A program made the position numbers and the translations under genes. Positions 45,283 through 61,936 of a stretch of DNA of 64,000 bases are shown in pieces. Origin of the DNA: Terebella lapidaria (lineage: Eukaryota > Annelida > Polychaeta > Terebellida > Terebellidae); assembly GCA_949152475.1 (NCBI GenBank), contig OX424555.1, positions 58,695,977 to 58,759,976 of the forward strand, in the 5' to 3' direction. Positions within the stretch are counted from its first letter, which is position 1, and each line of letters starts with the position of its first letter. The notes under the pieces are model-generated. The model had not been told where the DNA came from, did no database searches, and saw nothing but the letters and a program-made list of their open reading frames with translations.

Positions 45283-45402
45283 CGCATCGCTCTCTCGTTC
45301 TCTCGTTCTCTCGCTCCCTCGTTCTCTCGCTCTCTCGTTCTCTCGCTCTCTCGTTCTCTCACTCTCTCGCTCTTCCGCTCCCTCGTTCTCTCGCTGTCTC
45401 GT
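45283..45402. repeat. Pyrimidine-rich octamer array (CTCTCGYT)n
   Basis: About 15 units of CTCTCGTT or CTCTCGCT, a homopyrimidine-leaning tract that could pair with the purine-rich array at 46908-47239 when single-stranded. Confidence 0.85.
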
Positions 45403-46907
45403 ATGCAGAAACTAATTTTCATGTACCAGGTATGCAGTATCAGAAACTAACTGAAGATTTCAGCATACAGATAAAACGCACTTTTGAGAACTCGCACGAT
45501 GATTTTTTTTGGTTCTAATATAATCATACATACGACCATGTATGTACATGTACATTCATCTACGGAGCTAAGTTTTATATGTATATTTTAATGATATTGA
45601 TAAAGGTTTCGACATGGTCAGTGCTATTACAATGCTCATGGGCAAGTACAGAAATAATGGAAGGGAAGGAGCACGTACGGACTGTACCCGCCCTTCCCTG
45701 GACACGCCCCTGTCATACCAGTTTCCTTGTAGGACATATGAAAATAGGACATATAAAATAGATGATATTGATCTGAAATTTACATCATAGTTTCTACTTA
45801 ACAGTGTATTCTTTGAAAACCACTGTATGCATAGGCGATTAAGTTGTAAAATTATGCAATATGAGTCCCATATTGTTTCGAAAATTACAATTCCATATCG
45901 TGCTCTATTATGATTGAATATCACAATAAACGGTGATGATTATCGTGTTATTTGAAGTACGTGTATTGCATTCTCATCCGTGAACCACCACCTCCCACCA
46001 AGCCGCCTTACCCTCACCCCCCTCCACCCAGTCTACACCTTCATCCGCTGCAAGTCACCTCATTGGTTATATCACTGTCACGTGGTAGCGAGCCTTATCC
46101 ACTCACCAGGCTCTCTTACGCAATCTTCTGGGCTGTAGGATCGGAGCCTGTGCAAATTATATGTATGTGTTGTAGATGCCGTTAGCGAAATCTAAATGCT
46201 TGAACCATGTACAAATATGATATATAGGGCCTGTAAAATGTATGTAATCCGACGAAATTATAATATTAATACATAAGAATAAACCATAAAATCTTCACAT
46301 ATTTAATTCATATTGAGAATATTCATTAAATATCAGTAGCTCCAGAAATATCATGTAAGATCCGATATCAGAATCTTATTTGAACGGAGTCTAGATATAT
46401 TCTTTCACTTCAATTACAACTTTGTTTTTGTCAACATTTGACACAAAATTGTTGTAAGATTAACGTTCAATAAATAATTTTAATCATAATTTGTTGACAT
46501 CGGTTATTGTGTGCGTTGTGCGAAGGGAAGGGGCGGGGTATATAGGTAAATAGATGGTGAAAAACAACAACATCTATTCATGTTGATTTATATAAATTTA
46601 TATAAATCGTTATTTCGGTATTGAACGTCATATGTTTTGCGCTTGAATATGTACAGGGAGATTAGTTTTGATGTAAAGAATTAACTGATCATATTTGACC
46701 ATATGCAATAAAAAATATTTGAACATATTCACTGGTAGGTATACATGTATAAATATTAATGCAGCAGAGTGGACGTGATTATTTTTCGTGTGCGCGAAAA
46801 ATATCGTGGTAACGAATAAAAAATTAGCATCTGAACAAAAGAAAGAAAAACCCGTGATAACGAGAAATTTATCGTTAGAACGGATTAATTTCTTGTGACC
46901 TGTCATA

Positions 46908-47239
46908 TGAGCGAGAGAACGAGGAAACGGAGGAACGAGTGAGCGAGAGAGCGATGCGAGGTAGCGAGAGAACGAGATTGCAAGAGAACGAGAGAACGAG
47001 GGAGCGAGAAAGCGAGAGAGCGATGTGAGGTAGCGAGAGAGCGAGAGAACGAGGTAGCGAGAGAACGAGATTGCGAGAGAACGAGTGAGCGAGAGAGCGA
47101 GGGAACGAGAGAGCGAGAAAGCGAGAGAGCGATGCGAGGTAGCGAGAGAACGATGCGAGATAGCGATGCGATAGAGCGAGAGATCGATGCGAGATAGCGA
47201 GAGTGCGAGGGAGCGAGAGAACGACGCGAGGAAGCGAGG
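46908..47239. repeat. Purine-rich octamer array (AGCGAGAG/AACGAGAG)n
   Basis: About 330 bases of GAGCGAGA and GAACGAGA units with occasional GATGCGAGGTA variants. It is the reverse complement of the left array and of the following array at 47258-47395. Confidence 0.85.
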
Positions 47240-47257
47240 TTGATTTATGTCACTATC

Positions 47258-47395
47258 TTATCGCTCACTCGCTCCCTCGCATCGCTCCCTCGCATCCTCG
47301 CATCGCTCTCTCGCTCCCTCGCATCGCTGTCTCGTGCGCTCGTATCGCTCTTTCGCTACCTAGCTTCGCTCTCTCGCCGCGAGGGAGCGAGATTG
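47258..47395. repeat. Second pyrimidine-rich octamer array
   Basis: Units such as CTCGCTCC and CTCGCATC, inverted relative to the preceding purine-rich block. Together the two could form a long imperfect hairpin around the short spacer at 47240-47257. Confidence 0.75.
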
Positions 47396-48744
47396 TCAGA
47401 TGGACGCTATCAGCCACCATAATAGACCCATGTTGACCGAGCTCTCTACCCATTCTCTTTGTTACCCTTGACCATATCATACATGTACATCCATGGAAGT
47501 GAATTGACAAAAATCGATTCTTGGTCGTTGCTTTTCTTTTGGATGTTCTTTTATGAAAAATTGTTCTGATCCTCGACAATGGAAGTTGAACCCAGAAGTC
47601 CTTAAGCTGTATATATAGATATTGCCACGTTCCGTTACGAGTTCTGGTGAGTCCCTTTTGGCACTTGAGAGAGACTTGGGTCAGATATGGGTACTCAGCA
47701 GTGGAAAGGATAGCATCACATGGATTTGCTTTATAGATTAGTATATATAGTCATGCCACTTTGTCTTGGAAACGACTGTGGAGGTTTCCGTGACGATTGA
47801 TGTGACAAAAGTCATGGCTTTTGCAAAAACAGCCGTGAATATTTCTTCGATATGTTTAATCGTAAAAACATAGCACCAAGGGTGCTGTAGCTTACCGGCA
47901 ATCATGAGAAATGCAGAGTATTGATTTTCCAACATATAAATTATTACACTGATCTTAAACTCTATTGTCAAAACATGTTCGTAAATGTTGCTGGAAACAC
48001 ATTTTCTGTATGGACTATAATACGAAATCAAATTACACATCACAAAGGTACATGAAGAGAATCTTATACATGATTTTGAGAAAAACTGCCTGAATAGATT
48101 TAGACAAAATGGCCACCAAAGACAAAATTCATCATTTTTGACTTTCCAAGGTCATTGAAGGTCAAATTCAAGGTCATCACTCACACCGCAATATATGATT
48201 TCCCATTTGAATGTGCCAATACTTAGGCTCTATTTTGAAGTATTCTATAAATTTACTCTGCACATCTCCCATTATGAAGTAAAAATTGGGTGAAATCCAA
48301 AAAAAAAATTTTCAATGAGCAAAAAAAATTTTTTATTTTTTTGCTGAAAATGGCTCAAAACGAATAGTGACTTGATTTGAGACGAAAAAAATTTTTTTCG
48401 TCGACCCATCAAAAAATTAGGCCAAGGGACGAAGATAGGTTACCGGACAATGTTTAATATCTTAGATGTTAGCCAGGTCACTGGTTGAATTCAAGGTCAA
48501 GAGAATATTCAGCATATACATTAACATTAAGCATATATCATGTCCACAGTTGATTGCTAAGCTGTGAATTCAATAATCAGAGAGATATTAGTAATTTTGT
48601 GCTGTGGCCTTGAAAATGAAGGGGCGAAGGTCAAATTCAAGGTCATCAAAATATTCAATGTATATCATTTTCTATATCATGTTCACAATTGATTCCCAAG
48701 CCATACAGTCAATAGAGGAGCAAGATATGAGCCAGTTTGTCCTG

Positions 48745-49548
48745 TGACCTTGAAAATAAGGTCAGAGGTCAAATTCAAGGTCCCGAGAATATTCAGCATA
48801 TATCATTTCCTATATGTCCACAATTGATTCCTAAGCTGTAAAATCGATAATAAGTGAGATATTAGCCATTTTGTCCTGTGACCTTGAAAATGAGTTCAAA
48901 GGTCAAATTCAAGGTCATGACAATAATCTGCATATATCATTTCCTATATGTTCATAATTGATTGCTAAGCTGTGAAGTTGATAACAAGCGAGATATTAGC
49001 CATTTTGTCCTGTGACCTTGAAAATGAGGTCGAAGGTCAAATTCAAGGTCATCAGAATATTCAGCATATATCATTTCCTATATGTCCACAATTGATTCCT
49101 AAGCTGTAGAGTCGATAATAAGCGAGATATAAGCCATTTTGTGCTCTGACCTTGAAACTGAGGTCAGAGGTCAAATTCAAGGTCACGAGAATATTCAGCA
49201 TATATCATTTCCTATATGTCCACAATTGCTTCCTAAGCTGTAGAGTCGATAATACGCGAGATATAAGCCATTTTGTGCTCTGACCTTGAAACTGAGGTCA
49301 GAAGTCAAATTCAAGGTCACGACAATATTCAGCATATATCATTTCCTATATGTCCACAATTGCTTCCTAAGCTGTAGAGTCGATAATAAGCGAGATATAA
49401 GCCATTTTGTGCTCTGACCTTGAAACTGAGGTCAGAGGTCAAATTCAAGGTCACGAGAACATTCAGCATATATCATTTCCTATATGTCCACAATTGATCC
49501 CTAGTGTCTAATCTCAATATCAATTGAGATATTAGGCATAACGCATAA
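48745..49548. repeat. 134-base tandem repeat rich in AGGTCA half-sites
   Basis: TGACCTTGA starts at 48745, 48879, 49013, 49147, 49281 and 49415, exactly 134 bases apart each time. Each unit continues with a GGTCA pair, then ATTCAAGGTC, then CAGCATATATCATTTCC. More diverged units precede it near 48470 and 48605. TCAAGGTCA is the consensus extended half-site for ERR/SF-1-type nuclear receptors, and AGGTCAGAGGTCA is a DR1 arrangement. Confidence 0.85.
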
Positions 49549-56919: not shown

Positions 56920-57946
56920 ATGTCTTATACGGGTGATGACGTATAGTCCAAGAGCCCAGAGGGTTTTATTTGAGTCAGAAGTGCCAAAAGGTCTGAGAGT
57001 TGATTCTAGATTGAAATTTACTCAGGAATCCGAAAATGGACGTCTGACAAAGATCTGCCTAGATAAACTATCCAAAATTTCACTTTGAAGTGAGGTACCC
57101 TAGGTCACGATATCAATTTTTCGTCATATTTCCATCTTCCAGTGTTTTGGTCTAACGATGATATATTTGTGTAAAATATGCTATTTGTTTTGTTTTATCC
57201 ATGCTAGTGACCTTACTATATATATCTTCTGACATAAAAACATAATCTGATTTGTCAAAATTCCAATATGGCTGCCATTCTTCATATATAAATCGAACAA
57301 TTAGTTTGTAAAAAATAACACCCGTCAACGAAATAGTCAATTCTTCCTGAAATGTCATTGTATGCTATTGTTATAATAGTAGTTCATGTATATTGAATAG
57401 TCTATATCCGATTAATTCATTTAGTTCTCTTTCATAGGATAGTACCAGTGGTGGCTACCAGAATGTTGATTGGTCAAGTAAATAGTTTACGTGATTGAAT
57501 TAGTTGTGTATGATATTCACGTATTTACATGTAAGTCTATTCTGTATAACTTCCTCCCCTATCCTAGCACATGCCATGTGTATACATGTACCTATTCCTC
57601 TGTTCAATTTCGTCATTCTTTTTGTCTGTCGTTTTATCTGTATCACCATGACATATGACGCAAACAACCAAAAGTGTATGGGGTATTTGATGACACACAG
57701 TGTATAGTGGATACAGTTTTGTATACAGAATACTGTATGAAACACTTTCAAATCATCATATTGTAGGTAGCTCCTTCCAGTTTACAGTTATTGCTGATAA
57801 ACTCAAAATTGTTTGTCGTTTTTTATTTCACAGCGATTCCTAGGCTGGTGCTGGCGGCGATACAAATGTATATATAGTTAAGTGCATTCAGAATACGTTA
57901 ATGCTCATAACATTGTTGTTATCCATTAAACAAACTTATCTTTACA
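56920..57946 (+). promoter_or_regulatory. Upstream region of the large gene, possible promoter and intron
   Basis: Unique relative to the surrounding array. A YY1-like word, AATATGGCTGCC, is at 57265-57276 and a TATA-like word, TATATAAAT, at 57285-57293. An inverted CCAAT box, GATTGGT, lies near 57470. Immediately upstream of the coding frame is a good splice acceptor, a pyrimidine-rich tract ending TCTTTACAG at 57939-57947. A 5' non-coding exon upstream is therefore possible. None of these sites is proven. Confidence 0.3.
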
Positions 57947-57988
57947 GGAAATGAAAGTGGCAGAAACAGAACTCTGAATTTTTTCATT

Positions 57989-60900
57989 ATGGAGACGCAG
58001 CCCTGCAAGCGAATATGTATACTGCATATAGATCCAAGCTTGACTTCTTCTCAGCCCCCTAAAGCGTTTGATGACACAACTTGGCATAAAGTACTATCTG
58101 CTCACAAATACCGCCTTGATCATTCTGTACACTCCAAGTATCTTGCAGTGAAACTTCCAGGCACATATGATGACACAGTAGGGTATCACAGCATATGTTA
58201 CAAGAATTTTACAGCTGTCCGTGCGTCAGACACATCACAGACAATCCCAATGAAAGATCGTGTCCTGAGATCTGACACTGGACAAAAAACAAGTGCATCT
58301 GGCATATTTCTTCCAGCCTGTTTATTTTGCGAAAAAGTTACAAAATCACAAGGACAGCTTAAAAAGGAATATTTGGGAAACTATGAAGACCCTACAGCAG
58401 GACAAAACATATATGAAGCAGCAGTCGCACTCTCTGATGACGTTATGCTGGCTAAAATATCAGGCATTGACTTGATTGCCAAAGAAATAAAGTATCATCA
58501 CACGTGCAGGAGAGCATATTTGGACAAGGCAGCGAATATACAGCAATCAAAAGTATCAGACACCTCCTGTCACCAGAGAGCATTTGAAGAGTTGAAAAGC
58601 TATATCAAAGAAAACCTGATTGACGTAGAAGGGGCCGAGTTTCTAACTTCGATACATGCAAGATATCTGAAAAGTCTACAGGATGAAGATTCAACATACC
58701 CTGCTGCTTCTCTGCGTGACAAACTGCTGAAAACTTTCCCTGATCAACTGAAACAATGCAAGTCAAGCAACAAGCAGGGAAATATTATATACAACAGCAA
58801 CATGAGTGTTGAAGCTGCTTTTCGACAGGCGTCAGTCGATGATACTGCCTTAGTTGGAGCAGCACTATTTCTTAGACGTATCATCAAAGATGTTGTGAAG
58901 CAGAGTGATCCATTGCCCGAAAACTTAACGGCCAAAATGATGTCTACAGGTCAGGGTGATCCCCCAGATTCTTTGCTAACCTTTTTTCGAGTTCTATATA
59001 CAGGTTCGGCAAAAGAATGCCAAAGTGACCAGGTGTCCAGACTCATTCAGTCTGTGTCAGCAGATGTCATGTTTGCTTCCAGTAGGGGACATTTCAAACC
59101 AGGCAAACATATCAACATGGGCTTAGGCATGAAGAGCCTGACAGGATCCAGGAAGGTTCTTGACATTCTCAATCGAATGGGCCACTGTATTAGTTATCAC
59201 GGGGCAGAAGAACTCGAAACTAGTCTTGCTACTGGCGTCGTCACCAGGGAAAATGCCACACCTGATGGAATTCTTCAGCAGCCCGGCCTAGCAACAGCAC
59301 TGGCATGGGACAATTATGATGTGAATACTGAGACGATCTCTGGTGCTGGTACTGTACACGACACTGTTGGCATCTGCTATCAGAACGTCTATCCAACCAC
59401 AGAACCAGCAGAAGAAGAAACCAGCATTTCGACCCAAAACAACTCATCACATCCCAAAAAGAATCGTCGATCAAGACTTTTCACCAGAGAACAAAAATCA
59501 TTGGAGCCATACAGAAAAAAACCAAAGATCACTACATTTGAGTACCCAAAGAGATCAAGTGAAATACCATCGCACCTGAGCACTATGGAGTGGAGAGATA
59601 CTCTGTGGATGATATGCATGAAGCTGGAATCAACACCGATGTGGACAGGCTGGAATGCACTGTCAACTGATGATCAACTCCCAATACAACGTATCGGGTA
59701 TATGGAAAACATCAGTTTGCCTCCAACACGACTAGATGTCGTAGCAGAGACACTAAAAATATCCCAGAAGGTGGCGGAAGAATGTCATGAGGACTATGCA
59801 ATAGTCACATATGATCTAGCTGTGGCAAAGCCAGCTATGCAAATACAAGTTGCAGAAGCTCCTCTGTATGACAACGTATTTGTTTGTTTTGGAGCCTTCC
59901 ACATCACACTGGCTTATTTTGGCTGTCTGGGCCACTACATTGATGGATCTGGTGGTCCCCACATTCTGACAGAAACTGATGTCTTAGCTCCAGGTTCACT
60001 TCGAGGCTTCCTCCTGGGAAAACACTACAATCGTTGCAAACGACTTCATCCTCTTCTTGCAGCAGCCATGCAATCACTTCACTTTGATGCCTTTGTTCAG
60101 AGTAGAGAAACACAAGTAGACCTATTTGAGAAGTGCACTGACCAGAATGTCCCATCAATGCTCGAGGCATTGGAGAAATCCTCTGAGTACAACACTCTGA
60201 TGCAAGAATATGACGAGTACACAAGGAAGACCCTTGCGGGTGAACACGGAAGCACAGCACATTACTGGATGCAGTATGTTGATCTTGTGCAAAGATTCCT
60301 GCTTCTGAGCCGAGCGTGCAGAACAAAATATCTTCCCTTGTTCATATATGCTCTCGAAAGGATGATCCCGATCTTCTTCGCTGGCAATCGACCAAACTAT
60401 GCCAGGTACATGGTTCGCTATCACTTGAATCTTCTTAATGCCGAAAACACACATCAAGGAGTATCACAAGTTTTGGAAGCTGGAGCGCTGTCTGTTAGGC
60501 GCACTGCCAAGCCGTTCTCGATAACAGCAGTGGACATGACCCTGGAGCAGACTGTCAATGCCGACGCTGCATCCAGGCAGACTGGTATTGCAGCATTTGT
60601 CCATTCTGCCACAGCCCGAAGGAGGTGGATGGTCACACAGTCCATGCGTAGTGCAATCGCGGGAAACCTTCTTGATGAGGCTGGCTTGACGACTTCAGAA
60701 GACATCACTAAAGAACTCAGGAAACACCGGATCAAAAAAGACCATGAAGATTTCGTTAAAATAGTCCATGGCATCAACTCAACGATGAATCCTTTCAGTA
60801 TTCAAGAACAGGAACCTGATACTAACCTGTATTGCCTCACATCAGGAAAGAAGACCATGGACACAGTCAGAGACGATCTCTTGCAGTTTGTCAAGAAAGG

Positions 60901-61936
60901 AGAATCATCCTCTGCTGAGTTCAGAGAAGCCTGCTTTGATGATCCACTGCGCTTCGAGAAGCCAATCAAACGACAAAAAGCTCAGAACTTCACCTCTAGC
61001 TCTGTCAAATTGCAGCTACAAACCAAAAACAGGGTGCATGAGATCCAGGGAACAAGGGACCTGTTTGGTAGGCTACTGCTCATCAGTGCACAACAGAAAA
61101 TCGACCTGACCAAGGTTCTTGAGTTCCCATTAACACCAGTACCTCTCGCCTTAGGTCACAGTGATGGCAGCATTAACAAAACGGACAAATCTAAACTGAT
61201 GCAGAGACTGGAGTCAATGATGCCTGATAAAACAGAGCCTGATGCAGTCGATACGGTGATTGTTGATGCAACATTCTTCTTGCATGCACAGCAAAATCTG
61301 CCACTCAGCTTTGGTCAAGTATCGAAAGTGCTCCTCCAACAACTCTGCATGATGGGCAGGGAGATCCATTTCGTCTGTGATACATACGGTTCTCCGTCAA
61401 TCAAGGATATGGAACGTGAGCATCGTGGAGCATCTGACATGGTGATAAATATCACAGGACCAGAACAGATTCGTCCCAAGGATTGGCAGTTGTCACTACG
61501 ATCACCATCATTCAAGTCTGGCTTCTGTCGGTTTTTGGCTACAGACTGGGCAAGGAACACACATGCCGGGTTGCTCAGGAACCACGATGTGTTTTTGGCT
61601 ATTGACAACAAATGCTATTGTTTCACAGCAATCGGCAACACAGTGTCTTGCATTACAGTGGGAGAACTCCAATCATCCCACGAAGAGGCTGATACCAGAA
61701 TGGTGTTCCATTTGCAACACATCTCGTCACGTCAGATCAGTGGGAATGTCTGTATCAGGAGCAACGATACAGATGTCTTGATCATCCTCATCTACTACAT
61801 GTCACACATCACAACAGCGACTAAAGTATGGCTTGATGCTGGTCTAAATCACAACAACACGCGTAGGTACATCAGCATTGATGCACTTGTGCGTACTAGA
61901 AGTTGTGTGTATGTTTCGGAACGCGTGTGCATGTAA
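57989..61936 (+). CDS. Large zinc-module protein with C-terminal FEN1/XPG-like PIN nuclease core
   Basis: One uninterrupted 1315-codon frame; start taken as the first ATG after a splice acceptor at 57947. Residues 10-70 and 111-173 form two paired modules (C10-x2-H13...H67-x2-C70; C111-x2-C114...H170-x2-C173), probably zinc-binding. PKKNRRSR (489-496) and RKKPK (509-513) suggest nuclear import. The middle (about 390-890) matches a recurrent invertebrate family I know only as uncharacterised proteins, with DNYDVNTE at 441-448, FGAFH at 634-638 and DMTLEQ at 849-854. Residues 1088-1271 carry a FEN/PIN pattern: D1093, D1131, K1139/R1143, E1233-A-D1235, D1260-T-D1262. This pattern binds metal and cuts flap or branched DNA in FEN1, EXO1 and XPG. 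After about residue 1298 (ISIDAL) the frame looks non-homologous and stops, so the end is spliced onward or lost. It interrupts unit U4. It is probably transposon-derived; activity is inferred, not shown. Confidence 0.85.
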   Translation: METQPCKRICILHIDPSLTSSQPPKAFDDTTWHKVLSAHKYRLDHSVHSKYLAVKLPGTYDDTVGYHSICYKNFTAVRASDTSQTIPMKDRVLRSDTGQKTSASGIFLPACLFCEKVTKSQGQLKKEYLGNYEDPTAGQNIYEAAVALSDDVMLAKISGIDLIAKEIKYHHTCRRAYLDKAANIQQSKVSDTSCHQRAFEELKSYIKENLIDVEGAEFLTSIHARYLKSLQDEDSTYPAASLRDKLLKTFPDQLKQCKSSNKQGNIIYNSNMSVEAAFRQASVDDTALVGAALFLRRIIKDVVKQSDPLPENLTAKMMSTGQGDPPDSLLTFFRVLYTGSAKECQSDQVSRLIQSVSADVMFASSRGHFKPGKHINMGLGMKSLTGSRKVLDILNRMGHCISYHGAEELETSLATGVVTRENATPDGILQQPGLATALAWDNYDVNTETISGAGTVHDTVGICYQNVYPTTEPAEEETSISTQNNSSHPKKNRRSRLFTREQKSLEPYRKKPKITTFEYPKRSSEIPSHLSTMEWRDTLWMICMKLESTPMWTGWNALSTDDQLPIQRIGYMENISLPPTRLDVVAETLKISQKVAEECHEDYAIVTYDLAVAKPAMQIQVAEAPLYDNVFVCFGAFHITLAYFGCLGHYIDGSGGPHILTETDVLAPGSLRGFLLGKHYNRCKRLHPLLAAAMQSLHFDAFVQSRETQVDLFEKCTDQNVPSMLEALEKSSEYNTLMQEYDEYTRKTLAGEHGSTAHYWMQYVDLVQRFLLLSRACRTKYLPLFIYALERMIPIFFAGNRPNYARYMVRYHLNLLNAENTHQGVSQVLEAGALSVRRTAKPFSITAVDMTLEQTVNADAASRQTGIAAFVHSATARRRWMVTQSMRSAIAGNLLDEAGLTTSEDITKELRKHRIKKDHEDFVKIVHGINSTMNPFSIQEQEPDTNLYCLTSGKKTMDTVRDDLLQFVKKGESSSAEFREACFDDPLRFEKPIKRQKAQNFTSSSVKLQLQTKNRVHEIQGTRDLFGRLLLISAQQKIDLTKVLEFPLTPVPLALGHSDGSINKTDKSKLMQRLESMMPDKTEPDAVDTVIVDATFFLHAQQNLPLSFGQVSKVLLQQLCMMGREIHFVCDTYGSPSIKDMEREHRGASDMVINITGPEQIRPKDWQLSLRSPSFKSGFCRFLATDWARNTHAGLLRNHDVFLAIDNKCYCFTAIGNTVSCITVGELQSSHEEADTRMVFHLQHISSRQISGNVCIRSNDTDVLIILIYYMSHITTATKVWLDAGLNHNNTRRYISIDALVRTRSCVYVSERVCM

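Follow-up and report, generated by a model that had tools for sequence, protein, structure and literature searches.

A very probable AcademX-type transposon, truncated in the window, pairs a DDE transposase with a predicted FEN/XPG-like nuclease in Terebella lapidaria

Introduction

The AcademH and AcademX lineages, which share a superfamily by name, differ in the enzymes they encode, a helicase and a nuclease, and in the length of their duplications, 9 or 10 bp for AcademH and 3 or 4 bp for AcademX; the available part of PMC10045372 links the second difference to the first. Here we describe an element in a 64,000-nucleotide stretch of the annelid Terebella lapidaria (GenBank assembly GCA_949152475.1, contig OX424555.1, positions 58,695,977 to 58,759,976 of the forward strand), referred to below as the window. 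It is very probably a 3'-truncated cut-and-paste transposon of AcademX type belonging to an animal genome, with Academ sequences compared by published description only.

Academ elements, with lineages not separated, have expanded in bivalves and have a curated mean length of 5565 bp in the available part of PMC10294476. In the available part of PMC9587614, DNA transposons of the Kolobok lineages KolobokE, D and P also come with an additional nuclease; these nucleases have other folds (PD-D/ExK, DEDDh, His-Me finger), unlike the PIN domain described here. In the literature that we searched, no paper brought Academ, transposon and XPG together. The Academ nuclease is reportedly called XPG by Kapitonov & Jurka 2010 and Kojima 2020. 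To our knowledge, the transposases of the P element, Transib/RAG1 and Hermes have no PIN nuclease domain, and these elements make duplications of other lengths.

Domain architecture and the C-terminal nuclease

The full-length family protein, read from sister copies of the window element, has 1516 amino acids (aa) and is arranged in the order N-terminal Cys/His modules, DDE transposase and C-terminal FEN/XPG-type PIN nuclease. The copy in the window contains the following features.

56944..61897, + strand: truncated copy of a very probable AcademX-type DNA transposon, left part only, by DNA match to sister copies L002-L006
56944..57293, + strand: left terminal inverted repeat of about 350 bp, first bases TAGTCCAAGAGC, left flank GTA
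57989..61936, + strand: transposase open reading frame (ORF), 1315 aa, of which the final 12 or so residues (about 1304-1315) are non-family sequence
58016..58198, + strand: Cys/His module 1 (C10, H67, C70), probable zinc site
58319..58507, + strand: Cys/His module 2 (C111-x2-C114 ... H170-x2-C173), probable zinc site
58976..60691, + strand: DDE transposase domain, RNase H fold with helical insertion, proposed acids D441 (59309), D609 (59813) and E853 (60545)
61166..61897, + strand: predicted FEN/XPG-like PIN nuclease domain (motif and fold of relative P0061), truncated ahead of its seventh acid and the helices that follow
61265, 61379, 61403 and 61424, + strand: nuclease residues D1093, D1131, K1139 and R1146
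61685, 61691, 61766 and 61772, + strand: nuclease residues E1233, D1235, D1260 and D1262

Residue conservation and a predicted fold support the assignment of the C-terminal domain as a FEN1/XPG-like PIN nuclease. This domain had been proposed in an initial annotation of the window from six acids, D1093, D1131, E1233, D1235, D1260 and D1262, all of which are indeed present (61265-61774, within 61250-61805), together with a Lys/Arg-bearing segment after the second Asp (SIKDMEREHR). We collected 89 relatives by a protein search in which scoring was restricted to the 7993 candidates with the most words in common, and aligned all 89 with MAFFT; the counts that follow include only rows covering each site. 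The six acids do not vary freely: D1093 is found in 82/82 rows, D1131 in 79/79, E1233 and D1235 each in 73/74, and D1260 and D1262 each in 72/72, with a single row (P0075) providing the only exception at E1233/D1235. K1139 and R1146 from the segment after the second Asp are each present in 80/80. A seventh acid, D1322 of sister copy L003, lies past the point at which the window copy is cut and is conserved in 68/68 rows within a G-C/T-D-Y/F motif (G-C-D-Y in L003). Even the least similar rows that reach this position, at 26-28% identity, keep all seven acids. Judged from the alignment, the six-acid pattern is beyond chance. The active site of FEN1 is formed by D34, D86, K93, R100, E158, E160, D179, D181 and D233, and the FEN-type set of seven acids with Lys/Arg is present in this transposon family with at most one exception per site, the window copy itself being without the seventh.

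The predicted structure of the relative P0061 has a FEN-type PIN fold, with structural scores of 14.0 to EXO1 and 13.1 to FEN1. In the structural rows FEN1, EXO1, XPG and GEN1 are 11-17% identical in sequence to the domain, which differs from them in being fused behind a transposase and in having no Pfam XPG match. Most of these acids are common to FEN and XRN enzymes, so the acid and fold tests separate the two weakly. A ribonuclease-like XRN relative in place of a FEN-type DNA nuclease is nevertheless unlikely, since EXO1 and FEN1 score higher and the domain sits inside a DNA transposase.

Sister copies and element ends

A search of the 761.6-Mb genome returned at least 39 match rows, several at 96-99% identity; this number is a lower bound (35 of 706 candidates were scored), and a single copy may yield several rows. 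Three near-identical copies (L002, L003 and L004) are full-length, measuring about 6.7 kb with inverted repeats of about 350 bp and ends reading TAGTCCAAGAGC. The frame is uninterrupted over 1516 aa in L002 and L003, and is stopped after residue 1033 in L004. Two related families have full copies of 7.0 and 8.0 kb. Across copies, the terminal inverted repeats are 338-414 bp long and 90-98% identical, and exact 3-bp duplications flank eight of the nine copies, drawn from three families, in which both ends are readable.

The terminal 12 bases TAGTCCAAGAGC, read at the ends of L002, L013, L016 and L017, are common to families with proteins about 46-60% identical to that of the window. At L013 (8001-8013) and L015 (1226-1238), one end of their family reads TAGAGCAGGAGCC and not TAGTCCAAGAGCC, and the 3-bp duplications are still exact. 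About 258 extra bp lie 5' of the ORF in L002 (641-898) and at the same place in L003 and L004, and are missing from the window copy (near 57387-57399), L005 and L010. The joint overlaps by 13 bases, so the segment would have been gained or lost between short direct repeats.

The window copy

Over the aligned parts, the DNA of the window copy matches that of sister copies L002-L006 at 98.9-99.6% identity (L006 compared over part of its length), with the match beginning at 56944 and ending at 61897. When reverse-complemented, the right ends of L002, L003 and L004 match its left repeat at 96-97% identity. The right part of the element was found neither in the 64-kb window nor in the following 6 kb (L018, to C1:58766000). 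Residues from about 1304 to 1315 of the ORF are unlike the sisters because they are an in-frame read of the DNA past the break at about 61897. Within the first 1304 codons, 17 differ from L002 and 13 of the 17 change the residue, a pattern compatible with a freely decaying copy, although few codons are involved and two of the 13 changes fall at the break. Lacking the right repeat, the seventh acid and the helices that follow this acid, the window copy is probably incapable of nuclease cutting and of moving on its own, and is most likely inactive.

Classification

The AcademX-type label is given because the nuclease, the duplications and other features found here match the published description. 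AcademX elements likewise combine a transposase and a nuclease in one element and have terminal inverted repeats, and in the available part of PMC10045372 they make duplications of 3 or 4 bp, a range that includes the 3 bp seen here; full copies of the present element measure 6.7 kb, and those of the related families 7.0 and 8.0 kb. The two AcademH features are absent: the duplications are 3 bp long, and the window protein has no helicase Pfam match. The initial annotation recognized the PIN nuclease and missed the DDE transposase in the middle of the protein, the transposon ends, the C-terminal truncation and the non-family tail. Its view that the combination could not be named from known systems is overtaken by the nuclease-encoding AcademX elements already published (PMC10045372, available part). 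The pairing of nuclease and transposase is thus known from AcademX, and the window element is very probably an additional member.

Several observations weigh against this interpretation. The copy at C13:40.37M has no 3-bp duplication, with TA alone on each side. At three related loci (L011, L012 and L014), which are outside the nine-copy duplication count, the pair of inverted repeats was not found. Without its right end, the window copy has no readable target-site duplication of its own. With the DDE model as query, Foldseek found nothing significant (best E value 1.0, to Transib); a second aligner, run on Foldseek's rows, was the only one to give a significant match. Neither the window protein nor 17 relatives matched Pfam XPG (XPG_N/XPG_I) or PIN families, profile-profile comparison not having been made, and searches of PDB sequences matched nothing relevant and did not find FEN1. 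The nuclease label therefore rests on fold and motif.

Alternatively, the element could belong to a group of DNA transposons other than Academ (P-like, hAT-like or an unnamed superfamily) and have acquired its FEN/XPG nuclease independently. We consider this very improbable: P elements make 8-bp duplications. The 3-bp duplications and fused nuclease found here fit AcademX as described in the available part of PMC10045372. A host gene, for instance a nuclease or transposase domesticated for a role in the cell, would account for the long open frame and conserved domains, but its probability is slighter still, and we reject it for the window copy, given the numerous and in several cases near-identical genome matches, mobile sisters flanked by inverted repeats and mostly also by 3-bp duplications, the truncation, and the small-number codon pattern against L002.

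Joint history of transposase and nuclease

Trees of the DDE and nuclease domains were compared for the 46 of 90 rows that cover both parts. The two trees have 28 of 43 splits in common, and strongly supported splits are contradicted in 2 of 29 cases for the DDE domain and 2 of 28 for the nuclease. Distances in the two domains correlate at 0.92, the highest value among 500 permutations being 0.32. The DDE and nuclease domains travel together and have the same history. A stop-free nuclease stretch of at least 421 query residues is present in eight of nine tested copies or relatives from the genome that contains the window (L014 fails; L002 and L003 are sister copies). Because transposase and nuclease are kept together, and the seven acids are kept at 26-28% identity, the nuclease is probably required rather than carried along.

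Used as the only query, the nuclease piece retrieved 164 relatives (best 120 of 164 listed), many of them ORFs on short contigs. A prokaryotic or viral home was considered and rejected: scans with six short peptide patterns each revealed no close relatives of the window protein in viral contigs or of P0061 in genome contigs (4 and 22 stretches matched, none confirmed), although distant relatives could escape such patterns. Three relatives (P0005, P0052 and P0123) are filed under bacterial metagenome-assembled genomes (Candidatus Thiodiazotropha, Desulfocapsa and Sedimenticola) and most likely represent DNA of host animals binned with the bacteria. The gene model P0042 from Nymphon striatum, labelled "complement component receptor 1-like", has a sushi domain (PF00084) beside the transposase, through either gene-model error or capture.

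Proposed mechanism

Alongside the element ends, 3-bp duplications, domain order, invariant acids and predicted folds demonstrated here, a route of transposition can be sketched. The Cys/His modules would coordinate zinc and bind the inverted repeats. The DDE centre would free the 3' ends of the element and join them to target sites 3 bp apart, leaving the 5' flank still joined as a flap on both sides, where the PIN nuclease would cut the other strand. We tentatively suggest, as a possibility that we rate below even, that AcademX elements have a built-in flap resolvase in their nuclease: the 3' ends would be joined by the DDE domain, and the FEN-type domain of the same protein would trim the old 5' flanks from the branched intermediate. 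Other elements deal with the 5' flank through TnsA, hairpin formation or host enzymes, and we know of no demonstration of a flap-resolvase route in transposition, although no literature search was directed at it. If true, such a route could link the length of the duplications with the partner enzyme. Whatever the route, the large zinc-module protein with its FEN-like nuclease is an enzyme of a mobile element, very probably from a named lineage. The nearly identical sisters with clean ends, two of them with open frames, offer material for studying the role of the AcademX nuclease.

Other features of the family and the window

The N-terminal Cys/His modules, to which the initial annotation had also drawn attention, are conserved: C10 in 32/32 rows and H67 and C70 each in 38/40 for module 1, and C111 in 47/47, C114 in 47/48, H170 in 52/53 and C173 in 53/53 for module 2. 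A Cys8 zinc finger is reported for AcademX in Repbase; the conserved modules here read C-x2-C...H-x2-C, not eight Cys. Within the DDE region, H638 is invariant. The window protein scores 12.1 bits against DUF6589 (PF20231), for which the gathering cut-off is 27; two relatives exceed it (P0014, 39.4; P0015, 33.8), and precomputed annotation assigns the family to 10 of the 89. DUF6589 was not mentioned in the literature searched. Four divergent members (P0079, P0082, P0171 and P0184) have a Cys-rich C-terminal tail resembling the Tesmin/TSO1 CXC domain, below the Pfam cut-off; no such tail was seen at the C-terminus of L003.

Elsewhere in the window, a tandem array at 48540-49503 comprises 7.1 copies of a 134-bp unit with 88% matches, and several tandem arrays rich in GAGA/TCTC, their units ranging from 8 to 109 bp, occupy 45287-47377.
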